A stretch of 46,560 bases of DNA. Source: an uncultured Bacteroidota bacterium (GTDB lineage: Bacteria > Bacteroidota > Bacteroidia > Chitinophagales > LD1). The notes beneath the pieces are model-generated. The model worked only from the letters and a program-made list of their open reading frames with translations, was not told the DNA's origin and did not search any database. A program made the translations under genes and the position numbers. Location: assembly GCA_903861145.1 (NCBI GenBank), contig CAIOTH010000095.1:1-46560 (forward strand), written 5' to 3'. This document shows positions 1,299 through 36,481 of the stretch, one piece after another (positions within the stretch are counted from its first letter, which is position 1; each line of letters opens with the position of its first letter).

Positions 1299-4253
1299 AT
1301 GAAACGTTACTTACTTATAGGTGCTGTTTTGCTAAACCTTATATCTTACAGCCAGGCCCCCCAACAAATGAATTACCAGGCAGTGTGCCGAAATGCTGCG
1401 GGACAACCGTTGCCAAACAACACAACTGTTTCCATCCGGTTTCAAATACATGATGGTTCAGCATCAGGAACAATTGTTTTTCAAGAAAGCACTACGGCTG
1501 TTACCAATCAGTTTGGCTTAATATCCTTGCCGATTGGCCAATTGGGCAATCTTGCAACGGTTGATTGGAGTTCGGGCGCCAAATATTTACAGGTTGAATA
1601 TGACCCCGCAGGTGGCTCAAACTTTACAGATATGGGTACCAGCCAATTGCTAAGTGTGCCTTATGCCTTATTTGCTGCCAATGCCGCTAATGGCTCGGGT
1701 ATAACGGGCCCCACAGGTGCTGCTGGTACGGTGGGACCAACGGGTGGAAATGGAGCGCAAGGACCGCAGGGGCCACAAGGCCCAGCAGGAGCCGGCGTTA
1801 CAGGACCTACGGGACCAGCAGGATCAGCCGGCCCACAGGGGCCCCAGGGTAATCAGGGGTTACGTGGTAGTACTGGTGCGACAGGACCGCAGGGAACAAA
1901 CGGTATAGCCGGCCCAACGGGTGCTAATGGAATTAATGGTGCCACAGGAAGTACGGGTTCAACAGGCCCGAGTGGTGGACCAGTTGGGCCGACAGGGCCA
2001 TCGGGCGTTGACGGAACAAATGGTACCGATGGAGTTACAGGTGCTACCGGAAATACGGGGCCTATTGGATTTACAGGACCCATCGGATTAACAGGCCCCG
2101 TAGGAAGTACCGGTGCTATTGGTACAACCGGTAATACCGGAGCGGATGGTATACAAGGACCAGTTGGACCATCGGGGCCAATTGGAGATACTGGTATTAC
2201 CGGTGCAACCGGCAGTACGGGTGCAGATGGAATACAAGGACCTTTTGGACCTACCGGATTAACGGGAGATATAGGTACTACGGGAGCTACCGGCCCTAGC
2301 GGCGGGCCAATGGGGCCAACCGGAAATGACGGTGTTACCGGCGCGACGGGAATTGATGGAACACAAGGACCAACCGGAATTGACGGGGCTACCGGTTTGC
2401 AGGGGCCAACCGGAGCAGATGGTGCAACCGGGCCTTCAGGAATCGACGGAGCACCAGGAATTACCGGAGCACAGGGGCCAACAGGAAATGCCGGAGTACA
2501 AGGCACAACCGGCTTACAAGGACCTACGGGAAACGATGGAGCACAAGGTGTTGCCGGGCCGCAAGGAACAACCGGTAACCAGGGAGCAACAGGAATAGAT
2601 GGGCAACAGGGAGCAACCGGTGCTGCAGGCATTCAAGGAACAACAGGAGCGCAAGGTTCGCCGGGAGTGGCAGGGCCAACCGGGGCAGTGGGTACTCAAG
2701 GAGCTACAGGGGCACAGGGAATTACAGGAGCTATTGGCACTACAGGTTCGCAAGGAATACAGGGAGTAACAGGAGCACAGGGCGCTACCGGCAATAATGG
2801 CGCTACCGGTGCCACCGGGCCGCAAGGAGCAACAGGTTCACAAGGAATACAGGGAATAACAGGTGCCCAGGGTAGCACAGGTATACAAGGTATTACCGGT
2901 GCAACAGGCACTACCGGTAGCCAGGGATTACAAGGAATAACCGGTACCACCGGAAGCCAGGGTATACAGGGGGTTACGGGGGCATCAGGTACCAATGGGG
3001 TTACAGGTCCAACGGGCCCGTTGGGAGTAGCAGGAGGTGATTTAACCGGAAACTACCCCAACCCAACGGTAGCTCAAATACAAGGTAACCCGGTTAGCAA
3101 TTCTGCTCCAACACTTAATCAAATTTTAAAGTGGAATGGAGCAGCATGGGTTCCGTCTACCGATAGCAGCGATTATGCATGGAATATGACAGGCAATGCA
3201 GGAACCGACCCTACGGTTAATTTTGTTGGAACCAGTGATGCGCAAAACCTTGTATTTAAAGTAAACAGTCAAATAGCCGGCTTGCTTGATTTCAGCAACT
3301 TCAATACTTCCTTCGGTTATCAATCGGCATATGCCAATAACGGTATATCAAATACCGCTATGGGCTATCAAACATTATATACTAATACAACCGGTGGTTA
3401 TAATACAGCTATTGGACAAACCTCATTGTTCCTCAACACAACGGGGGCAGATAATTCGGGTTATGGCGTTAGCTCCTTGTTCCTGAATACAGCAGGTTCA
3501 AATAACGTGGCCAGCGGCTATAAGGCCTTATATGCAAACGATACCGGCTCATCGAGCACTGCAACAGGTTGGGAGGCATTGTATTCAAACACCCATGGTT
3601 CATTTAACGTGGCCGATGGGTATAAAGCCCTATGGAACAACCTTACAGGTACCAATAATACCGGTATAGGTTACAACGCAGAAGTTAGCAGTGGCATTTT
3701 AACTAATGCTACCGCTATAGGCTCGAATGCAACAGTAAATGCTTCGAAAAAAATACGTTTAGGCGATGCGAATATTACTGTAATTGAAGGACAGGTGGGT
3801 TTTACGAATCCATCGGACGGGCGCTTTAAGTATAATATAACCGAAAGCGACGTTAAAGGACTCGACTTTATTAAGAGGCTAAGACCGGTAGTTTACAATT
3901 TCGATACGAAGAAGTTTGAGGAGTTTTTAATAAGGGGTCTGCCGGCTGATGAACAAAAAGCGCGCCTGGAGGGAAGGGACTTCACTGGGTCGTCATCTAT
4001 CCGCCAAAGCGGTTTTATTGCCCAGGAAGTTGAGCAGGCAATGAAAACCAGCGGCTACGATTTTAATGGCTTGCACAAGCCCGAAAACGAAAATGATAAT
4101 TACGGTATTACCTATGGGCAATTTGTTGTGCCGTTAGTAAAGGCCGTACAGGAACAGCAGGAAATGATTGAGGCACAAAAAGGCGCCATTGAGGAATTGA
4201 AAAAGCAGAATGAATTAATGATAAAGGAAATTGAGGCCTTGAAGAAGAAGTAA
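1299..4253 (+). CDS. Collagen-like surface fibre protein with self-cleaving S74 chaperone tail
   Basis: This is a secreted 984-residue fibre. I chose ATG 1299 over a TTG at 1251 because it begins the signal peptide ([20 protein letters not shown]). Residues about 20-130 form a globular head. Residues about 134-577 are Gly-X-Y triplets, mostly GPTG, GATG and GPQG, with two one-residue breaks. A stretch of roughly 24-residue YadA-head-like repeats (GYxALYxNTTGxxNTAxG) follows. The tail carries SDGRFK at about S839 to K844, the Ser/Lys pair of the peptidase S74 intramolecular chaperone known from phage tailspikes, then a C-terminal coiled coil ([20 protein letters not shown]). S74 domains trimerise and cut themselves off, which suits a triple helix. 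No T9SS sorting domain is seen. It is the first of three closely spaced genes. Confidence 0.85.
1698..3035 (+). repeat. Gly-X-Y collagen-like coding repeat
   Basis: About 148 codon triplets beginning with glycine. The 9-base periodicity is strong at protein level, but synonymous codons vary, so the repeat is not a recent identical expansion. It produces long open frames on the opposite strand that are artefacts. Confidence 0.9.
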
Positions 4254-4307: not shown

Positions 4308-6740
4308 ATGACTAAAGCAATATACGCTGAGGGGGCGAGTAGTGGCATGGTGAACAGAAACGCTAAAACTTATCTCCACAAAGGCACAATGCTGATGTTT
4401 CTTTTAATTACCGCTGCGGCGGGGTATGGACAATATTGCCTTCCAACCTACCAAACGGCAACTTGCATATCGGGCGATTATATTAGTGGGGTTCAGTTTA
4501 ATACTATAAATAATCAAAACACCGGCTGTCCGGGTTCGGGGGCAAATTACAGCGATTTTACAGGGTCGATATGCACCAGCGTTTGCCCGGGCTCAAGCTA
4601 TCAAATAACCATTACCAATAACGCTACTAACGGCGAGTATATGGCTGTTTGCATTGACCTGAATGAAAACGATGATTTCTCGGACCCAGGAGAGTTTTTC
4701 CCCATTGGTTATGCTCAGCCAGGTGCTAACATAAGCGCCAACATTATTATACCACCAACTGCAATGCCGGGCAACTCGAGACTAAGAGTGTTTTGCCAAG
4801 GAGCCAACGTAACGTTGACCCAAAGTGATGTTTGCGGCAACCTATCCACCGGCGAAGTGCAGGACTACTGCCTTAATATTAACTTACCTGTTACCGTTAA
4901 TTTAGGAAGCAATATTACCCAGTGTGGGGGTAGTGTAACGTTAGATGCGGGTAACGCGGGGTCCGGTTATTCCTGGTCGGATGCATCAACCAGCGAAACT
5001 TTATTGGTCAGTACAAGCGGTACGTATAGCACCACCGTTACAAATGCCAACAGTTGCTCGGCATCGGCATCAGTAAACGTGTATATTAAACCGGTGCCCG
5101 TTGTGGCGCTGGGGTCCAATGTAAAACAATGCGGTGGCACCGTTACTTTAGATGCCGGAAATGCAGGCCAAACGTTTTTGTGGAACAATGCCGCAACTAC
5201 CGAATCGATAACCACTAGTAGTAGCGGTAACTATGTAGTAACCGTTACAAATGTTAGCAGTAGTTGCACCGCCAGTAGCCGTGTTAGGGTTACTATTGAC
5301 ACCATTCCGGTGGTTAACCTTAATGCAGTACTACCTAAATGCGGAGGCTTTGACACTTTAAATGCAGGTGACATTGGTTCAAGTTATGCATGGTCTGATG
5401 GCTCAACTGGTCAAACGCTGATAGTAAACAGCAGCGCCATTTATCGGGTTACGGTAACCGATGGCAATACATGTACTGCGTCCGCTTCAGAAAACGCTAC
5501 CATTCATCCGCTGCCGGTGGTTACGCTAAACATCCAGCAAAACGTTTGTAACACGCTGGCCAATTTCAATTTATACGGAGGTAGTCCAATGGGTGGAACA
5601 TACTACGTTGACCACATAGCAGATACTGCATTCAATACCATTGACGCGGGAATACTAGGTCATCATATTACTTACATCTACACCGATACTTTGGGATGTT
5701 CAGATTCTGCCACAACATATATTACCGTGCGCAAGCATCCGTTTATTACCACGCTTAACTTCCCTCCTACTTGCGCCGGTTCTGCAACTATTAACCTCGA
5801 TGATTATTTTACCCCCGCCGGTGGGGTTTACTCAGGATTGGGAGTTAGCACACACTACTTTTACCCACCCTTAAGCGGGCCGGGAAAGGATACGATTATA
5901 GATATTGTTACTGACAGTTATGGCTGCACGGATACTTCCATTTTTCCGGTAACGGTTAATTCTTCAGTCAAGGTTTCGCTGGCTCCGAGTGTTTTGACCA
6001 ACGCAATATGCGCAGGACAAACAGTTTCATTTACAGCTTTGGGTGCTTCGAACTACCAGTTTTTCATCAATGGCATTGCACAGGATAGTATGTCGGTAGC
6101 CAATACATTTAGCACTTTTGCATTGCAAAACAACGATGCTGTAACGGTTGTAGGCACCAATACCTGCTCGGCAGATACAGCTATAGCGATAGGTTTCAAT
6201 GTTTATCCGCTTCCGGTCGTATCTGCTGGAAATGATACATCCATCTCTTTAGGCCAATCGCTGCAACTAAATACGGTAGCAAGCGGCTCGGGCTTATTGG
6301 TTTACCAATGGAACCCTGCCGGGTTATTGAATGTTGGAAACATACCCGACCCTCTTTACTCGGGCACTGCTGATTCTGTAGTTTTTACGGTAGTAGTATC
6401 TGATACTTATGGCTGCATAGACTCTGACCAGGTAACGGTACACGTTGTTGTACCGGACGCGGTACAATTACCTAACATTATTACCCCCGATGGTAACGGC
6501 AAAAACGATACCTGGAAAGTAAACAGCAGGGTTGACCTTACCGGTTCAAAGCTTGTAATTTTTAACCGTTGGGGAGAAACCGTTTACCATGCCGAAAATT
6601 ACAATAACGACTGGGGAGGCACTTACAACACCGGTGAGAAACTGCCGGATGGAACCTACTACTATGAATTCCAGGTGCCATCGCAAAACAATCATTTATA
6701 TAAAGGCGCTATTAATATTTTAAACGGAGGAGCGAAATAG
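4308..6740 (+). CDS. T9SS type B cargo protein with GEVEDY-like and Ig-like domains
   Basis: This 810-residue secreted protein is a likely adhesin. The hydrophobic signal MLMFLLITAAAGYGQ starts at residue 28, so ATG 4389 may be the true start; the longer start is kept as uncertain. A Cys-rich N-terminal domain ends in GEVQDYCLNI (GEVEDY-type, near residue 181). Three tandem Ig-like repeats of about 66 residues follow (pattern LGSN..QCGG.VTLDAGNAG...W), then further Ig/PKD-like modules. The end (LPNIITPDGNGKNDTW, VIFNRWGETVYH, LPDGTYYYEF) is the type B sorting domain. It lies 54 bases after the collagen-like gene and 5 bases before a PorP/SprF gene. Type B cargo is known to need a dedicated SprF-like partner, so the pair is probably cognate. 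Confidence 0.85.
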   Translation: MTKAIYAEGASSGMVNRNAKTYLHKGTMLMFLLITAAAGYGQYCLPTYQTATCISGDYISGVQFNTINNQNTGCPGSGANYSDFTGSICTSVCPGSSYQITITNNATNGEYMAVCIDLNENDDFSDPGEFFPIGYAQPGANISANIIIPPTAMPGNSRLRVFCQGANVTLTQSDVCGNLSTGEVQDYCLNINLPVTVNLGSNITQCGGSVTLDAGNAGSGYSWSDASTSETLLVSTSGTYSTTVTNANSCSASASVNVYIKPVPVVALGSNVKQCGGTVTLDAGNAGQTFLWNNAATTESITTSSSGNYVVTVTNVSSSCTASSRVRVTIDTIPVVNLNAVLPKCGGFDTLNAGDIGSSYAWSDGSTGQTLIVNSSAIYRVTVTDGNTCTASASENATIHPLPVVTLNIQQNVCNTLANFNLYGGSPMGGTYYVDHIADTAFNTIDAGILGHHITYIYTDTLGCSDSATTYITVRKHPFITTLNFPPTCAGSATINLDDYFTPAGGVYSGLGVSTHYFYPPLSGPGKDTIIDIVTDSYGCTDTSIFPVTVNSSVKVSLAPSVLTNAICAGQTVSFTALGASNYQFFINGIAQDSMSVANTFSTFALQNNDAVTVVGTNTCSADTAIAIGFNVYPLPVVSAGNDTSISLGQSLQLNTVASGSGLLVYQWNPAGLLNVGNIPDPLYSGTADSVVFTVVVSDTYGCIDSDQVTVHVVVPDAVQLPNIITPDGNGKNDTWKVNSRVDLTGSKLVIFNRWGETVYHAENYNNDWGGTYNTGEKLPDGTYYYEFQVPSQNNHLYKGAINILNGGAK

Positions 6741-6745
6741 TCATT

Positions 6746-8341
6746 ATGAAAAAACTCTTTTTAATAAGCTTATTGGCCATAGGAGTAACTGCGCAAATGC
6801 GGGCACAGCAATTGCCTTTATATAGCCAGTTATACTTTATGCGCATGCTTTATAACCCGGCGCTTACCGCTTATAATGGCAGTAGTAATCTATATGGCTT
6901 TTACCGCGACCAGTGGACAGATATACCCGGCCACCCGGTTACTGCAGGCGCCGTAGGGGAAGTTAGTTTATGGAAAGACCAGATAGGAACAGGGTTTCAT
7001 TTATACGAAGACAATACAGACATTATACACCGTATTAACGCACAGGTTTATTACGCCCAAAAAATAAAGCTAGCCAAAGATCATACACTATCGCTGGGAG
7101 TTTCTCTAGGTATTACCGAAACGCATATTGACTTTAATAACGTAACCGCTGCGGATGGTGATGATGAAGGTATTGCCCAGGGAACCAAGACCGGTGCCGC
7201 TTTTGCCATGAATATTGGCCTTGCATACCAATGGAAAAAGCTAACCGTCAGCTTCGCTATACCACAGGTAATAAATACTCAGGCGAGATTAATAAGCCAG
7301 TTACACGAGAGTGATTACCTTAACTCACGTAGCTTTTTAGGGGGCGCCAGCTATGAATTCAGCTTTGCAAAAGAGAAGTTTAATATTGAGCCAGGTGTAT
7401 TGGTAAAGGGAATGCCCGGCTTGCCGGTACAGATTGATGGCGATGTAACAGCCAACTATAAACGCTTCGTGTTTTTAGGCGTAGGGTACCGGTCGGCTTA
7501 TGGGGTTGGAGTAAATGCAGCCGTTCGCATCAGTAAAATATTTACAATAGGTTACGCTTATGAATATCCCATTATCCCCCATCTGAACTATGCTATCACA
7601 CATGGCACACATGAACTGATGGTAGGAATTAGCTTCGATACCTGGATGAAGAAGAAACCTGCAAGCAAGACTGACGACAGACAGGAGAAAATGGAAGGTG
7701 GCTTGGGTAAAAAAATTGATTCGCTGATTCAAAAGATAAACCACCTTGATAGTGTGTTGGACGCTAATAAGCTTACACAGCAACAGCTTGATAGCGCGCG
7801 CCAAAGCCTTGATGCGATATTGGCCAAGAACATGCAACAGGATGAACAGATAAAGGAGCTATCGGACAGAATGGATAAAATGCGGACCCAGTTTAAGGAC
7901 AGCCTTGATAATATGGCTAAGTCGTACCGCCAACGGGTTAAAGATAACCCACCGGTTAATTTCCCCTCATCCGTCAATCGAGATACGAGAGCAGTGGAGG
8001 GCGAGATATACCGGTTGAACAACGTAGAGTTTAATTTGAACAGTAGCTATCTCAAAAAGGAATCGTACCCCCAGCTGGATAACGTAATTACCTTCCTTCA
8101 GTTAAACCCCGGCATACATATCCGTATTGTAGGCCATACCGATTCAATTGCCTCGCCTAAGTACAACCAATGGCTAAGCGAGCGCAGAGCGATGGCTGTT
8201 TATGACTACTTACTTGGCAAAGGCATTTATGGCGACCGGTTGGTTTACATCGGCTTTGGCGAAAAAGTGCCCATTGCCGATAACGCTACCGAAGCCGGTA
8301 GGGCAACTAACCGCAGGGTCGAGTTCGAAATCGTCAAGTAA
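6746..8341 (+). CDS. PorP/SprF-family outer membrane protein fused to an OmpA domain
   Basis: This 531-residue protein begins with a signal peptide and QQLPLYSQLYFMRMLYNPA, the opening typical of the PorP/SprF family. The barrel runs to about residue 300 (GTHELMVGISFDTW). A charged heptad-rich linker follows (about 318-400). Residues about 420-531 are an OmpA C-terminal domain with GHTDSIASPKYNQWLSERRA; the Asp of HTD and the second Arg of LSERRA correspond to the known diaminopimelate-binding pair. PorP/SprF proteins act in type IX secretion, and SprF is needed for type B cargo. Usual family members are about 300-370 residues, without the OmpA part. The start lies 5 bases after the cargo gene stop, so the two are surely co-transcribed. 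Fusion suggests a secretion or anchoring unit fixed to peptidoglycan. Confidence 0.88.
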   Translation: MKKLFLISLLAIGVTAQMRAQQLPLYSQLYFMRMLYNPALTAYNGSSNLYGFYRDQWTDIPGHPVTAGAVGEVSLWKDQIGTGFHLYEDNTDIIHRINAQVYYAQKIKLAKDHTLSLGVSLGITETHIDFNNVTAADGDDEGIAQGTKTGAAFAMNIGLAYQWKKLTVSFAIPQVINTQARLISQLHESDYLNSRSFLGGASYEFSFAKEKFNIEPGVLVKGMPGLPVQIDGDVTANYKRFVFLGVGYRSAYGVGVNAAVRISKIFTIGYAYEYPIIPHLNYAITHGTHELMVGISFDTWMKKKPASKTDDRQEKMEGGLGKKIDSLIQKINHLDSVLDANKLTQQQLDSARQSLDAILAKNMQQDEQIKELSDRMDKMRTQFKDSLDNMAKSYRQRVKDNPPVNFPSSVNRDTRAVEGEIYRLNNVEFNLNSSYLKKESYPQLDNVITFLQLNPGIHIRIVGHTDSIASPKYNQWLSERRAMAVYDYLLGKGIYGDRLVYIGFGEKVPIADNATEAGRATNRRVEFEIVK

Positions 8342-8580: not shown

Positions 8581-10137
8581 CTAATACCTTTGGTCAGTAT
8601 CAACCGGTGGCGGCGTGTAGCGGCGTTGTTGCGTTTTTTGTTGTGTAGTATTTTTACCTCCGGCTTCAAATTTCCAGCCAACAGTAAGCAAAATGGTAGA
8701 TGAGTTATAAATACTGTTTACCGGGTAATTATAATTGCTCATTTGCACCGTGGCATCTTTCGACCAGCCGTAAACATAAGCTACATCAGCATAAAAATGC
8801 TTTAACCGCACTCCAATACCGGCACTAATGGCGTTTCTTACATCATTATAACCTGCGGTAACTTGTTGTCCGCTTTTGTATGGTGAAGAAGAGAAAGAAT
8901 AACCAGCCCGCAACCTTACAATCTTAATAGCCGCTTCAACACCGGCGTGTATGGTATGGGTATAGGTATAAGTACTCTTCATCCCATCGTTATAATACGT
9001 TTGGTAATTCAGCGAATCGTTTGGAACATGTATACGTTGCGCACCCAGGTTCTGCAATTCATAATCAACCGAAATAAATCCAAATTGTTTGTAGTAAAAA
9101 CTAGCACTAAAAACGCCTTTCATAGGGGTGCGAAATCCATATTGAAAGGTAGGCAAATTAGCAGGGCCACTTACATTGTAAACCGCGGTATCTTCACTAA
9201 AATTAAGTGTGTAATCTTCGTGTATAGCATACCAGGTAGGCAGGTGATAAGCTGCACCAACCCGCATCCACGGAAAAGGCCTGTAGATAAGGCCGATTAT
9301 TCCGTTAAAGCCATAACCCGACTCGGAAATTACAGTGTTCATAGAGTAATCCTGTATCTGGTTGGTTTGCGGTGAGGTAGGAGTTTCGGAAATAGTGCTT
9401 GATACACTATACCCCAAAATCGGAACAGCTAAATCAACACCCAAATAAAGTTTATCGAGCAGGTTAAAACCAAACGCAGCATCAATACGATTAATGCCAC
9501 CTCTTGTTTCAATATCTCCATGTTGTAAAACAGGGGCCTTCACGTTACTGAAATAGGATCCTCCATTGATATTTTGCCCAATTAAATTGGTAAGGCTGGC
9601 AATCTGCACTTCGGGCGCGAAAGAGGTTGCTGGTTGGTGGTAATAATTCATCAGGTCAACGTACCCGTCAATTAATGATTTATTGGTATTGGTAGCGCCG
9701 TATGTTTGGCTACGCGTAAAAATGCCCTGTTGCTGAAAATTAAGTGCAAACGAAAAAGCCCTTAATACAGGCTCAGCGTTATCATCCCCTTTCTTTTTAT
9801 AAAGCTTGCTAAACTCAAATCCACCCTGGGCCAAAAAGAATGCAGGCTTGTGAACAAAAGTATGGCTGCCATCATAAATGCCTTCGTTATTACCTATTTG
9901 AACCAGTGGGGTGATCGAAAAATCGGTTGAGCGATATAAACCCAGCCCGGCAGGATTAATGCTGATACCACCCATATCTGCACCTACTGAGCCGTATGCT
10001 CCACCGGAGCCGGCTGTGCGGGCAGTACCGCTAAGGCCTGTACGGCACCATGATGCAGTAGCATCAGCAGGGATATTTTGTGCAAACGAAAAACGGCTTA
10101 ATAGTAAAAGTGCTACAACAAATTTTGTCCTCATCAT
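8581..10137 (-). CDS. FadL/OMPP1-type outer membrane transport protein
   Basis: A 518-residue outer membrane barrel. It has a signal peptide (MMRTKFVVALLLLSRFSFAQ), then a Gly/Ala-rich stretch and INPAGLGLYRSTDFSI, the NPAGL-type motif of the FadL/TodX/OMPP1 family, followed by many alternating beta-strands ending in ILLTVGWKFEAGG. FadL proteins carry long-chain fatty acids or other hydrophobic compounds across the outer membrane; the substrate here is unknown. The C-terminal extension after the last strand (about 25 residues, Gln/Thr/Pro/Arg-rich) is unusual because most barrels end at the last strand. It lies downstream of the Gly-rich gene but is separated by a terminator, so it probably has its own promoter. 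Confidence 0.75.
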   Translation of the reverse strand: MMRTKFVVALLLLSRFSFAQNIPADATASWCRTGLSGTARTAGSGGAYGSVGADMGGISINPAGLGLYRSTDFSITPLVQIGNNEGIYDGSHTFVHKPAFFLAQGGFEFSKLYKKKGDDNAEPVLRAFSFALNFQQQGIFTRSQTYGATNTNKSLIDGYVDLMNYYHQPATSFAPEVQIASLTNLIGQNINGGSYFSNVKAPVLQHGDIETRGGINRIDAAFGFNLLDKLYLGVDLAVPILGYSVSSTISETPTSPQTNQIQDYSMNTVISESGYGFNGIIGLIYRPFPWMRVGAAYHLPTWYAIHEDYTLNFSEDTAVYNVSGPANLPTFQYGFRTPMKGVFSASFYYKQFGFISVDYELQNLGAQRIHVPNDSLNYQTYYNDGMKSTYTYTHTIHAGVEAAIKIVRLRAGYSFSSSPYKSGQQVTAGYNDVRNAISAGIGVRLKHFYADVAYVYGWSKDATVQMSNYNYPVNSIYNSSTILLTVGWKFEAGGKNTTQQKTQQRRYTPPPVDTDQRY

Positions 10138-31288: not shown

Positions 31289-34200
31289 ATGAGAAGACAT
31301 CTACTCATAATAACTTACCTTCTTATTGGATTTGTATCGCAGCTACAGGCTCAAACCTATGGCAACGAATGGATTGACTATACCCAGGAGCATTATAAAA
31401 TAAGTGTTGGGGCCGATGGCATTTACCGCATCCCCTTAAGCACATTAACTGCAAACAGCCTTGGTTCAATAAGCCCGACCGATTTTATTATGTGGCACAA
31501 CGGGCAGATAGTGCCGATTTTTGTTTCGACAACGAATGGAGCTATTGACTTTATAGAGTTTTTTGGCAAGAAGAACATTGGTGATGTTGATTCGACTTTA
31601 TATGCCAACGACTCGTTACAGCCGCATATTTATTACAGTTTATTTACTGACACAAGTATTTATTACCTTACCGTTAATACCACCGGCGCTGGTGGGCCGC
31701 TTCGTTTTTTTACCCCTAAAACCAACGATTTACTCAACGCGCCGAACCCGGAGCCTTACTTTATGTGTGTGAACCGCCAACTAAATACAGGGTTGAACAT
31801 ACAGGGCCAACAATATTATGCGGGTACTGACCAGGCTTTTAAATCTACTTTTGACTGGGGCGAGGGATATGGCAATTCGCAGTGGTTTGGAAGTTTTGCT
31901 GCTACAGGGCAGGTTACCAGCCAAACTTTTACTTTTCAAACTCCGTTTCTTTATCAACAAGGAGCTCCGGCTACTTTTAAAGCTGTTTACGAAAATTACT
32001 CGCCCGGTTATCACCTGGTGGATGTGCAGTTAAACAATAATGCCCCATATACCCAGGGCTCGAATGGATTTTTCCTAAACAAGTTGAACGTATCGGTTCC
32101 TATCGGCCAATTGCAACCGGGAAGTTCCAGTGTTACATTTTCCACGCAGGATGGCTCTACACAGAGTGTGCAGCAGAACAATGTTTTTTTAACTGAACTT
32201 GATTATCCAAGCCTGTTTAATTTTAATAACCAAAACACTTTCTTCTTCACTATCAATGGCAATCAATCAAGTACGCAACATTTGCAAATAAGTAACTTTA
32301 ACAGTAACGGCTCTCAGCCTATACTTTTCGATTTAAGTAATGGGTTGCGCATACAATCCAACCAGCCTGCAACTAATAGTGTATTTGATTTTGTATTACC
32401 GGCATCGGGTACCGCAAGCCGTGATTTATACCTGATAAGCGGCTTCCCCACCAGTGTAAATATTGTGCAACAAATGGCACCGGTGTTTTTTAAAAACTAT
32501 ACCAATTTAAATGCTGATTACTTTTTGATTTATAATACCCAGCTTGATTCAAACAATGATGTAACCAACTACCAACACTACCGCGATAATAACGGTACCC
32601 CTTACATTGGTAAATTTTACACTGCGCTTATTGATATAGACCAACTGTACGACCAGTTTGGATACGGGGTGAAGAAATCGCCTTTATCCATCCGTAACTT
32701 TATACAATATGCCTTGCACAAGTACGCAACCGGCGCATGGACGCACAAACCGCAATATGCCTTTATTATTGGTAAAGGATACCAGTACCCCGATATGCGC
32801 AACGGGGGCAACTCATATAACAATTGCCTGGTACCAACGTTTGGCCAACCCGGCTCGGATAACCTACTTGCAGCTGCACGGTTTAGCGATACCAGTACCA
32901 TTAGCATTGGCAGGCTTGCTGCGCGAACAGGGCAACAGGTACATGATTACCTGGCAAAAATGCAGGCTTACGAATCTTTTCATGATACCACTTCAACCGG
33001 TGATGGTGCTTTGAATGGCTACCCGGCAGATGAAGCCATTGCACCAAAATTATGGCAGAAACAGGTGCTTGAGTTTAGCGGCGGTACCGGTGCACAGGAA
33101 CAATCGCAATTTGCATCCTTTGTTCAATCTTTTGGTAGTGTGGCGGTTGATAGCTCGTGGGGAGCCAATATTACGTATTATGCCAAAACAGGTAGTGACC
33201 CAATTGCAACTTCGCAGGCTAATGTTATTAAGAACCAGATTGACAGCGGTGCTTCGTTGCTTACTTTCTTCGGCCACTCGGCAACCGGCGCATTTGATTT
33301 TAGTATTGACGAGCCGGAAAACTATACTAACCATAACCGGTACCCGGTGATTCTATCGAACGGATGTTTTGCCGGTGATATATTTGAAACTACCGCCGGT
33401 TACAGCGAGCGCTTTGTGTTGGAGGCCAATATAGGAGCCATTGCTTTTATGGCCACATCAGACCTTTCGGTAAATTATAGCCTTTATAATTTTAGCTATG
33501 CGCTGTATCAAAATTTTTGCAAACAGTATTACATGAACAGTTACGGTTTTGCGGTACGGCAGGCTGTAAAAAATATTATAACCAATTATGCTAACGATCC
33601 TTTTAGCCTGATGGCTTGCTATGAGTTTACGCTACATGGAGACCCTGCTTTAAGGCTCAATATTTATCAAAGGCCTGATTATGCCATTGATAACTCATCG
33701 GTTTATTTTACACCCAGCACGGTTACGCAAAGCAATAATACATTCCAGGTAAACGTAATAGTTACAAACCTTGGCAAGGCCATTAAGGACTCGATTAACG
33801 TAAGCCTTAAGCGTGTGGTTTACGATGCTAATAATAACCAGGTAGTGTTTAATTCGGTTAAGCGGATTTTAGCGCCTTATTACAAGGATACGGTATCGTT
33901 TACTGTAACCACGTTGTCCGCTAATATCGGTACAGGCCAAAACCTTTTCTATCCTTATGTTGATGCCGGCTTTGAGGTAAAGGAAATGGCAGAGGATAAC
34001 AACGGTTTAGCACTTAACCCCAAATCGCTTTTTATACAGCAGGATGATGTGTTGCCTATTTACCCGTACGAATATGCCATTGACTCAAGTGCAGCAGTAA
34101 TTTTAAAAGCATCAACTACTAATCCGTTTGCTGCATTGCGTACTTACGATTTTGAAATTGATACCAGTCAGTTATTTAACCCGGCAACTATGGGCAATGG

Positions 34201-36481
34201 CTTCCATCAAAAAGGAACAGTTACGCAGGTGGGCGGAGTATTGCACTGGGCGCCACCGGGCGAGGTTTATAAAGACAGTATGGTTTATTACTGGAGGGTT
34301 AAAATGGATACCAGCGCTAATAACTGGCATTATACTTCGTTCGAGCATATTAAGGGGCAGTTTGGTTGGAACCAATCTCATTTCTTCCAGTACCGCCAGG
34401 ATAATTATTTGAACATGTATTTGGATAGCCCCACCAGGACATTCAAGTTTAATTCGAACACCAACAATATTAGTGTGGTTACAGGTTTTGCTGACGCAGA
34501 GGGTGGTAACTTACCTTATGCAACGCTGGGATGGTATTATAACAATTACAATGAATATCGCTTTAGAATGGGTGGTTGTGAACCTGCTGGAGGAGCTACT
34601 ATTACAATAGCTGTAATTTCTGGAACCACGGGCTTACCTTTGATGAGTTATAATGCCGGAGATGGCAGTAGCAGTTGGGGTACCGTTTATGGTAATTACC
34701 ATTGTTTTGACCATGCCGACCCTCAAGCCGGATTTGATTTTTCGACCTCGGGACAAACAAATTACACCTCAGGGCCATTTCAAGGTAAATACTGGGATAC
34801 TTTGATTTACAATTTTATCAATTCAATTCCGTACGGAGATTATGTTTTAATGTATTCGGATAATAGGGTAAATTATAGTACCTGGCCGGGCGACCCTGAA
34901 CTTATGGCGGCATTTGCAGAGATAGGATTTAACCCTTCTCCCTTAGTTAGCGTTCCGGGGCCGTTTATTTATTTTACCCAAAAAACACCGGGCAACAATT
35001 ACCCCAATACGGTTTTTAAGCAGTCAAATAGCTTTTATACTCCGGTTCGGGACTCGTTTAATTTTACCGGGGCCTGGCATCAGGGGCAAATGCTATCACC
35101 CCTTATTGGCCCTGCTAAGGGATGGAATGATATGCAATGGCGAAGACATGCTTTGGAGAGCCAGAGCCGTGATGTTGACTCGGTGGACATTATTGGTTAC
35201 AACAATAATGGTGCCTCAACAGTATTGCGAACAACGGTTACAAACGATAACCCAATTACTTTTATTAACCCGGCTCAATATCCATACCTGCAGTTGCGAT
35301 TAAGAACGAGTGATGATAGTACGCATACGCCAACACAGCTAAATTACTGGCGCATATTATACCAGGAAGTACCTGAGGCAGCTATTAACCCCGCAGCGCA
35401 TTATTTGCTTACCAGTGATACAGTTAGCCAGGGCGGTAATTTAAATGTAGAAGTGGGTATTGAAAACGTGACTAATATTAAAATGGATAGCATGCTGGTG
35501 TATTACACCATACGCGATGCACAAAGCCATAGTACGCTCGACTCGGTTACGTTTAGCCCTTTGCCGGGTTTATCAGTACTGAACCTGAAGTATAACAAAC
35601 CACTTACCAGCAGCAGCATTGTAGGGCTTGACCACCTGACGATTGAGGCTAACCCGCATAACAAACAGCCGGAGCAGTACCACTTTAATAACTTTGCGCA
35701 GCTTGATTTTCATGGTACCTCTAACACTACCAATCCGTTACTTGATGTTACGTTTGATGGTAGCCATATTTTTAACGGCGATATAATTTCGGCGAAGCCT
35801 AATATTGTAATTAGCCTTAGGAGTGACAGCAAATATCAACCGTTGAAGGATACTACATCTATGAATGTTTATCTATTATCTCCGGGCCAAACCACACCGG
35901 TTAGGATTAATTACGACGGCCAAATACTTAAATTTTATGCGGCGGATACATCCAACCTTATTAAGTTAAACCGTGCACAGGATGTTTACACACCTAACTT
36001 TACGCAAGATGGCACGTACCAGATAATGGTGCAGGATATTGACCCCAATGGCAACCACAGCAGCAACGTAAACCGTTACGAGGGCAATACTTTTTACGAT
36101 TATAAGATGAGTTTCCAGGTTATTAATAAGCCGATGATAACTAACGTGCTTAACTATCCTAATCCATTTAGTACCTCTACTAAGTTTATTTTCACCCTTA
36201 CCGGTAGCGAAATACCGCAGTATATGAAAATACAGATTATGACCATTAAGGGTATTGTGGTTAGAGAAATTACTGAGCAGGAATTAGGCCCTATACATAT
36301 TGGCACTAACATAAGTGATTACGCCTGGGATGGCCGAGACCAGTATGGCAGCAAATTAGCTAACGGCGTTTATTTTTACCATGTTGTTACCCGCCTTGAT
36401 AATAAGAATATGGACGGCATGGGTATGAGCTACGATAACTTCTTTAAGAAGGGATTTGGTAAGATGGTTATACTTAGGTAA
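31289..36481 (+). CDS. porU2: Giant PorU2-type T9SS sortase (C25 peptidase family)
   Basis: A 1730-residue secreted Cys peptidase. It has a signal peptide (MRRHLLIITYLLIGFVSQLQ) and an N-terminal beta-rich part (YGNEWIDYTQEHYKISVGAD). The gingipain-like C25 domain follows, with catalytic His in LLTFFGHSATGAFDFS (H663) and Cys in VILSNGCFAGDIFE (C693). The large C-terminal half has Ig-like modules and closes with a FlgD/T9SS-like domain (VLNYPNPFSTSTKFIF, WDGRDQYGSKLANGVYFYHV). PorU cleaves the sorting domain of type A cargo and joins the protein to surface lipopolysaccharide. Classic PorU is about 1100-1300 residues; this matches the long form called PorU2. It lies 3 bases after the PorV/PorQ-family gene. 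Its TAA stop is the first codon of repeat copy C. Confidence 0.88.
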   Translation: MRRHLLIITYLLIGFVSQLQAQTYGNEWIDYTQEHYKISVGADGIYRIPLSTLTANSLGSISPTDFIMWHNGQIVPIFVSTTNGAIDFIEFFGKKNIGDVDSTLYANDSLQPHIYYSLFTDTSIYYLTVNTTGAGGPLRFFTPKTNDLLNAPNPEPYFMCVNRQLNTGLNIQGQQYYAGTDQAFKSTFDWGEGYGNSQWFGSFAATGQVTSQTFTFQTPFLYQQGAPATFKAVYENYSPGYHLVDVQLNNNAPYTQGSNGFFLNKLNVSVPIGQLQPGSSSVTFSTQDGSTQSVQQNNVFLTELDYPSLFNFNNQNTFFFTINGNQSSTQHLQISNFNSNGSQPILFDLSNGLRIQSNQPATNSVFDFVLPASGTASRDLYLISGFPTSVNIVQQMAPVFFKNYTNLNADYFLIYNTQLDSNNDVTNYQHYRDNNGTPYIGKFYTALIDIDQLYDQFGYGVKKSPLSIRNFIQYALHKYATGAWTHKPQYAFIIGKGYQYPDMRNGGNSYNNCLVPTFGQPGSDNLLAAARFSDTSTISIGRLAARTGQQVHDYLAKMQAYESFHDTTSTGDGALNGYPADEAIAPKLWQKQVLEFSGGTGAQEQSQFASFVQSFGSVAVDSSWGANITYYAKTGSDPIATSQANVIKNQIDSGASLLTFFGHSATGAFDFSIDEPENYTNHNRYPVILSNGCFAGDIFETTAGYSERFVLEANIGAIAFMATSDLSVNYSLYNFSYALYQNFCKQYYMNSYGFAVRQAVKNIITNYANDPFSLMACYEFTLHGDPALRLNIYQRPDYAIDNSSVYFTPSTVTQSNNTFQVNVIVTNLGKAIKDSINVSLKRVVYDANNNQVVFNSVKRILAPYYKDTVSFTVTTLSANIGTGQNLFYPYVDAGFEVKEMAEDNNGLALNPKSLFIQQDDVLPIYPYEYAIDSSAAVILKASTTNPFAALRTYDFEIDTSQLFNPATMGNGFHQKGTVTQVGGVLHWAPPGEVYKDSMVYYWRVKMDTSANNWHYTSFEHIKGQFGWNQSHFFQYRQDNYLNMYLDSPTRTFKFNSNTNNISVVTGFADAEGGNLPYATLGWYYNNYNEYRFRMGGCEPAGGATITIAVISGTTGLPLMSYNAGDGSSSWGTVYGNYHCFDHADPQAGFDFSTSGQTNYTSGPFQGKYWDTLIYNFINSIPYGDYVLMYSDNRVNYSTWPGDPELMAAFAEIGFNPSPLVSVPGPFIYFTQKTPGNNYPNTVFKQSNSFYTPVRDSFNFTGAWHQGQMLSPLIGPAKGWNDMQWRRHALESQSRDVDSVDIIGYNNNGASTVLRTTVTNDNPITFINPAQYPYLQLRLRTSDDSTHTPTQLNYWRILYQEVPEAAINPAAHYLLTSDTVSQGGNLNVEVGIENVTNIKMDSMLVYYTIRDAQSHSTLDSVTFSPLPGLSVLNLKYNKPLTSSSIVGLDHLTIEANPHNKQPEQYHFNNFAQLDFHGTSNTTNPLLDVTFDGSHIFNGDIISAKPNIVISLRSDSKYQPLKDTTSMNVYLLSPGQTTPVRINYDGQILKFYAADTSNLIKLNRAQDVYTPNFTQDGTYQIMVQDIDPNGNHSSNVNRYEGNTFYDYKMSFQVINKPMITNVLNYPNPFSTSTKFIFTLTGSEIPQYMKIQIMTIKGIVVREITEQELGPIHIGTNISDYAWDGRDQYGSKLANGVYFYHVVTRLDNKNMDGMGMSYDNFFKKGFGKMVILR

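Follow-up and report, generated by a model that had tools for sequence, protein, structure and literature searches.

A PorP/SprF barrel fused to an OmpA domain beside a type B cargo gene in the Chitinophagales: a probable type IX carrier with a built-in cell-wall anchor

How the type B surface proteins of the Bacteroidota are held, and why some of them glide and others stay, is the question that forms the background to two adjoining genes in the 46,560-nucleotide stretch analysed here (contig CAIOTH010000095.1 of assembly GCA_903861145.1; the window), which derives from an uncultured bacterium of the order Chitinophagales. The first encodes a predicted cargo of the type IX secretion system (T9SS), and the second a PorP/SprF barrel that continues in the same chain into an OmpA peptidoglycan-binding domain. 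From the sequence we consider it probable that the second gene encodes a dedicated type B carrier of the first protein with a cell-wall anchor built into one chain, and that this carrier would be static. The features are as follows.

4308-6740, plus strand: type B T9SS cargo gene, 810 aa, with GEVED and C-terminal CHU_C domains (Pfam, TIGR04131)
6465-6716, plus strand: CHU_C / type B sorting domain of the cargo, residues 720-803 (Pfam)
6741-6745, plus strand: 5-base spacer from the cargo stop to the carrier start (sequence reading)
6746-8341, plus strand: PorP/SprF-OmpA fusion, 531 aa, cysteine-free (Pfam, TIGR03519)
6800-7627, plus strand: PorP/SprF outer-membrane barrel, residues 19-294 (PF11751, E 2.4e-47)
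7628-8011, plus strand: linker of about 127 aa, helical in the model (helices at 321-340 and 342-400), presumably periplasmic (AlphaFold2 model)
8030-8314, plus strand: OmpA peptidoglycan-binding domain, residues 429-523 (PF00691, E 7.6e-19)
8141-8188, plus strand: ligand residues D466 (8141-8143), N474 (8165-8167) and R481 (8186-8188), by PorE spacing

The 4308 protein contains GEVED (PF20009, E 1.5e-13, residues 112-190) and CHU_C (PF13585, E 3.5e-24) domains, and scores 57.3 bits against the type B sorting-domain profile TIGR04131, above the cut-off of 35. Its true start is uncertain, as a methionine at residue 28 lies directly 5' of a hydrophobic, signal-like stretch (ending AAAGYGQ, as read by eye in the sequence). 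The cargo open reading frame (ORF) ends at 6740 and the carrier ORF starts at 6746, so that 5 bases lie between them, in agreement with the initial annotation.

That annotation had also described PorP/SprF and OmpA parts as a single polypeptide, and both domains are indeed present in the 6746 ORF above curated cut-offs. The barrel scores 193.9 bits against the carrier-family profile TIGR03519 (cut-off 90.55) and 162.2 bits against PF11751 (cut-off 22.3), and the OmpA domain, which both matches its family profile and retains the ligand residues, scores 68.3 bits against PF00691 (cut-off 27.2), with the OprF C domain (5u1h, E 1.6e-23) as its top PDB sequence match. The Asp and Arg noted earlier as retained are D466 and R481, accompanied by a third ligand residue, N474; their spacing of 8 and 7 is that of Asp576, Asn584 and Arg591, through which PorE of Porphyromonas gingivalis holds diaminopimelate (DAP; PMC7192894). 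An AlphaFold2 model built from eight related fusions has 14 strands of at least seven residues and three short ones, although its mean predicted local distance difference test score (pLDDT) is only 62, followed by a long low-confidence helical stretch and a compact OmpA domain; the linker helix is weakly supported because pLDDT is below 50 over most of residues 299-380. Foldseek matches to the barrel include FadL, TodX and chain F of the T9SS RemA-CTD (C-terminal domain) complex 8gl6, and those to the C-terminal end include OprF, OmpA and the PorE C domain (6top).

A frameshift or assembly artefact can be rejected, because the same genome contains two more intact fusions (L019 and L022) and two relatives have colinear fusions 75% identical to the 6746 protein; dozens of further loci occur in relatives. 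Profile searches of this genome identified 17 PorP genes, a SprA and a GldK. Three of the 17 PorP genes carry an OmpA fusion, so the fusion is not singular in the genome, and each of the three lies directly 3' of a CHU_C gene with gaps of 5, 5 and 37 bp. Among the 14 unfused PorP genes, six are followed directly by a separate gene for an OmpA-domain protein.

To place these genes among their relatives, a fusion-profile search was made of 148 genomes of the window's order and loci with long PorP frames were fetched. A fused carrier is present in at least 28 of the 148 (including one extra, G025), a lower bound since among the matches listed at most nine candidates were scored per genome. A second survey covered 247 genomes of the phylum (13 of the order, 48 from other orders of the class and 186 from further out), with five or six candidates scored in each, and among the matches listed only G202 and G331 show a fusion outside the order; both are PorP-SPOR proteins (see below), each 6 bp behind a CHU_C gene. 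Fusions are therefore recurrent but, in these samples, concentrated in the window's order. The counts that follow concern 47 fused loci, 29 PorP-OmpA and 18 PorP-SPOR. Loci L034, L035 and L037-L041 were dropped before counting, as the length of their contigs and their position on them indicate that these are the contigs of L046-L052; L036, whose carrier is cut by a contig end, was left out of pair counts and later trees, L042-L045 (distant, unfused) out of pairs and trees, and L057 (truncated barrel) out of trees. The near-identical L055, L060, L062 and L064 are absent from the second tree only and remain among the 47, and L151 and L152 (unfused) appear only in later trees. Across the 29-row alignment of OmpA fusions N474 and R481 are invariant (R481 in 29/29), and D466 is present in 23.

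The initial annotation had allowed that such fusions might prove common and unlinked to type B cargo genes; they are recurrent, yet a CHU_C gene lies directly upstream on the same strand at 44 of the 47 loci, with gaps of -50 to 126 bp at 42 of them and 6 and 6 bp at two more. We compared fused and unfused carriers in a census of the PorP genes of six genomes, covering 89 of 92 matches (three of the 19 in G040, on contigs C8, C16 and C7, were left out) and scoring, within 200 bp of each carrier, a cargo gene on the upstream side and a separate OmpA gene on the downstream side. All 13 fused carriers have cargo upstream as against 36/76 unfused ones (p 2e-4), though because so many unfused carriers are also cargo-linked, the linkage is a trait of the carrier family and not of the fusion alone. 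A separate downstream OmpA gene accompanies 0/13 fused but 26/76 unfused carriers (p 0.009), and among carriers with cargo upstream the figures are 0/13 and 15/36. Both contrasts persist when the weak OmpA calls L125 and L128 are removed (cargo 11/11, p 7e-4; downstream OmpA gene 0/11, p 0.03), and on the window's side of the barrel tree (cargo upstream of 10/10 fused and 13/26 unfused carriers, p 0.006; downstream OmpA gene at 0/10 and 9/26, p 0.04). The absence of a separate OmpA gene beside fused carriers is as expected if the fusion replaces that gene, and together with the linkage it supports the earlier proposal that PorP/SprF and OmpA proteins of such gene clusters act as one complex, with the peptidoglycan link built in.

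Cargo and carrier also vary together. Distances between cargo CTD signals and between barrels correlate across 78 pairs (rho 0.74), and across the 58 pairs with less than 60% barrel identity (rho 0.66), values reached by none of 2000 permutations in either case. The correlation holds within single genomes: rho is 0.75 for nine pairs in this genome (0/2000 permutations), 0.65 for 13 pairs in G094 (1/2000), 0.52 for 11 pairs in G075 (2/2000) and 0.80 for eight pairs in G040 (4/2000), these four being the genomes covered (G013 and G074 have too few pairs) and the rho values being uncorrected for kinship. This fits the cognate cargo-carrier pairing demonstrated experimentally in Flavobacterium johnsoniae (PMC12618676).

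The evidence goes beyond the earlier reading in one further respect, in that a SPOR domain also takes the position of OmpA. Many long PorP proteins end in this other peptidoglycan-binding domain, an unexpected tail at the same position and in the same barrel clade. At E values up to 0.01 Pfam recognises OmpA in 27 of the 29 proteins classed as OmpA fusions (missing L125 and L128) and SPOR in 17 of the 18 classed as SPOR fusions (missing L075), some SPOR matches scoring below the gathering score; the three missed proteins were classed by our own profiles, built iteratively on these same sequences. Linkers span 79-390 aa in OmpA fusions and 84-317 aa in SPOR fusions (45 loci, without L149 and L150), and in four OmpA fusions (L077, L082, L132 and L142) the linker consists of thrombospondin type 3 repeats with many cysteines. 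At L083 (6813-8843, minus strand) a PorP protein has a tail of about 380 aa ending in a SPOR match, and from its sequence this tail may contain more than one SPOR-like unit.

OmpA-type domains usually tether the outer membrane to the cell wall, and the fusion could in principle do the same, serving envelope integrity as an OmpA/Pal-like tether that happens to use a PorP barrel, with cargo export secondary or lost. The match of the barrel's fold to general FadL-type barrels would suit such a role. We nonetheless regard it as very improbable: whereas a cargo gene precedes 44 of 47 fused carriers, none of 923 other non-nested ORFs of at least 200 aa at the same, PorP-centred, loci follows a CHU_C gene within 200 bp; the barrel and the cargo signal co-vary; and SPOR can replace OmpA.

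The absence of cysteine bears on a different alternative. The window's pair resembles SprB-SprF of F. johnsoniae in that a type B cargo has its own PorP/SprF carrier, but the C-terminal tail of SprF carries a Cys-X-Cys motif that bonds it to GldK of the moving track (PMC12635249), and no cysteine, and thus no such tail, occurs in the 531 residues of the fusion. In the census a cysteine within the last 15 residues is found in 0/13 fused and 45/76 unfused carriers, a contrast compatible with a peptidoglycan-binding domain that acts during secretion, parking the carrier near SprA or barring it from joining the GldK track, and imposes no permanent hold. However, unfused carriers on the window's side of the tree also lack the terminal cysteine (1/26 has one), so that lacking it is characteristic of that side, and for this reason we do not use the contrast as main evidence. 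On the other, Cys-tailed side 44/50 unfused carriers have the terminal cysteine, often in a CPxF-like end, and 0/3 fusions do; these three alone suggest replacement of a cysteine tail by a fusion, and one of them has cysteines in its linker. Action confined to secretion is therefore distinctly unlikely in our estimation.

The barrel phylogeny shows more than one gain or exchange of tails. In the first barrel tree 36 of the 44 fused rows fall in one supported clade of 37 rows (Shimodaira-Hasegawa-like approximate likelihood ratio test, SH-aLRT, 96), its sole other member being L036, cut off by a contig end; within this clade the OmpA tails and the SPOR tails group into separate subclades, and the remaining fusions lie elsewhere in the tree. 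A single origin of all fusions was rejected by the approximately unbiased (AU) test (p 3.8e-5) on a set of 64 rows with barrels less than 42% identical, from which three long-branch unfused rows had been removed. A 121-row tree gives eight tail changes, of which its starred branches force at least three for OmpA and at least two for SPOR, and an independent-pairs test on the barrel tree yielded only three supported pairs.

These origins help to weigh a selectively neutral merger, in which adjacent carrier and PorE-like genes became joined and function as they did in the two-gene form. Unfused clusters are often ordered cargo, porP, OmpA gene (e.g. L026, L033 and L093-L095), which speaks for such a merger, and it is possible that the fused and two-gene forms are functionally equivalent. 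However, the 26 separate OmpA genes beside unfused census carriers encode proteins of 626-855 aa, whereas the fused tail consists of a linker and one domain; SPOR fusions cannot derive from a neighbouring OmpA gene; and a grouping of all fusions together is rejected by the AU test. A neutral merger is thus fairly unlikely.

Several observations weigh against a dedicated carrier with a built-in anchor. Three of the 47 fused loci have no upstream cargo gene, two of them at a contig edge (L057 and L072) and one (L082) with the cargo gene 98 bp downstream. Six of the 29 OmpA fusions, in two lineages (L069, L070, L073, L074, L125 and L128), have serine in place of the DAP-binding Asp, and two of these (L125 and L128) are the ones unrecognised by Pfam. 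Neither contrast reaches significance on the side of the tree that has only three fusions (cargo upstream 3/3 and 23/50, p 0.11; separate OmpA gene 0/3 and 17/50, p 0.54). A cysteine tail and a neighbouring OmpA gene occur together in 13/76 unfused carriers and are not mutually exclusive (p 0.33). Finally, the genomes were chosen for their fusions and the fused loci are kin, some near-identical, so that p values and permutations are not independent draws; the census p values describe rather than prove.

Among separate OmpA genes, serine occupies the position of the DAP-binding Asp in 4/29 and asparagine in one. It has been proposed that mobile cargo is without a wall-binding partner (PMC9143113; PMC12618676), and a strict rule in which Cys-tailed mobile carriers exclude a static OmpA neighbour was considered and is not supported: since 13 of the 76 carry both, the simple division into mobile and static carriers fails in this order and is not borne out, unless a tail with a single Cys is no mark of a mobile carrier.

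For the anchored carrier we propose the following route. The 4308 cargo would cross the inner membrane and reach the SprA translocon, where the PorP/SprF barrel would take it by its C-terminal domain and remain bound to it in the outer membrane. The barrel's C terminus would be periplasmic, as its predicted even number of strands suggests, and would continue through the linker to the OmpA domain; this domain would bind meso-DAP peptidoglycan, and cargo and carrier would therefore be held still. Delivery through SprA and binding of cargo by the barrel are extrapolated from reports on F. johnsoniae and P. gingivalis (PMC12618676, PMC9143113), and the immobility of both proteins is likewise what we infer.

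Parts of this arrangement have precedents. Like the OmpA and OprF porins, the fusion places a periplasmic OmpA domain after an outer-membrane barrel, but the OmpA and OprF barrels belong to another family (eight strands in OmpA) and are not known to have a cargo gene. The PorE-PorP-PG1035 complex reported in P. gingivalis likewise combines a type B cargo, a PorP barrel and an OmpA-type peptidoglycan link with the same three ligand residues (PMC9143113, PMC7192894), so joint action of PorP-like and OmpA-like proteins is not new. Unlike the fusion, that system consists of three separate proteins, and PorE is described as a lipoprotein with TPR, beta-propeller and carboxypeptidase-regulatory-like parts; a Pfam scan (E 0.01) found none of these parts in the 6746 protein, which scores 69.9 bits against the PorE profile NF052230 (cut-off 600), over its OmpA part only. 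In Fjoh_3952-3951-3950 of F. johnsoniae, the genes for cargo, carrier and PorE-like protein are adjacent as well, carrier and PorE-like protein being encoded separately; the cargo signal is reported to be static, and anchoring through the PorE-like protein is a proposal (PMC12618676).

That a separate PorE-like protein ties static cargo to the wall has thus already been proposed in print (PMC9143113, PMC12618676), and the single-chain form is a variant of this idea. No description of PorP fused to OmpA or SPOR was found in the open-access literature searched (subscription papers and domain databases lying outside that scope), and a term search of the text available for PMC9143113, PMC12635249, PMC12618676, PMC10202324 and PMC5053529 returned no such fusion; InterPro may well contain the architecture. 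The same open-access literature yielded no paper combining PorP, 'SPOR domain' and type IX secretion, and no earlier proposal of a SPOR-tailed T9SS carrier with a septal address was found in it.

Other genes near these loci deserve brief mention. One of them lies 54 bp upstream of the cargo gene.

1299-4253, plus strand: collagen-like protein with a Peptidase_S74 chaperone domain (PF01391, E 5.1e-63; PF13884, E 1.7e-9)

This protein has nine collagen stretches, and its best PHROGs matches are phage tail-fibre families. It is possible that the gene is an operon partner of the cargo, a matter outside our core claim, but a role as part of the system is not supported: a collagen-like neighbour occurs at 2 of the 42 fused loci with cargo upstream (the window and L046), the upstream gene being cut off or not found at several of the 42, and collagen-like frames are numerous in this genome (130 matches). 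Collagen-like genes near type B cargo/PorP clusters precede the cargo gene in L046 and L026, and in L019 one lies two genes beyond the carrier. Elsewhere in the window, 31289-36481 encodes a putative T9SS sortase PorU2 (NF052324, 656 bits, cut-off 450), and beside the fusion 8581-10137 on the minus strand has a weak PorV/PorQ-family match (23.1 bits, cut-off 90) and no Pfam family. The unfused PorP genes at L024 (9776-10813) and L021 (9465-10436) adjoin GldK-profile matches, with no cargo gene found adjacent; the match beside L024 (G000:C27) is weak and, as a guess, GldJ-like, and that beside L021 (G000:C10) is over the cut-off.

As a natural single-chain version of the wall anchor, the fusion would make that anchor removable or exchangeable through a cut in a single gene. 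SPOR domains are specific for the denuded glycan of division sites, and a broader idea, which we put forward tentatively and consider possible though doubtful, is that the periplasmic tail of the carrier is an exchangeable destination module, with cysteine directing it to the moving track, OmpA to peptidoglycan over the whole cell and SPOR to division sites. If so, a SPOR tail would give a T9SS carrier a septal address, and a cell equipped with many carriers, each paired with its cargo, could use different tails to pattern its surface. The new prediction offered by the SPOR form is that the tail of the carrier would decide the position of the cargo on the cell.

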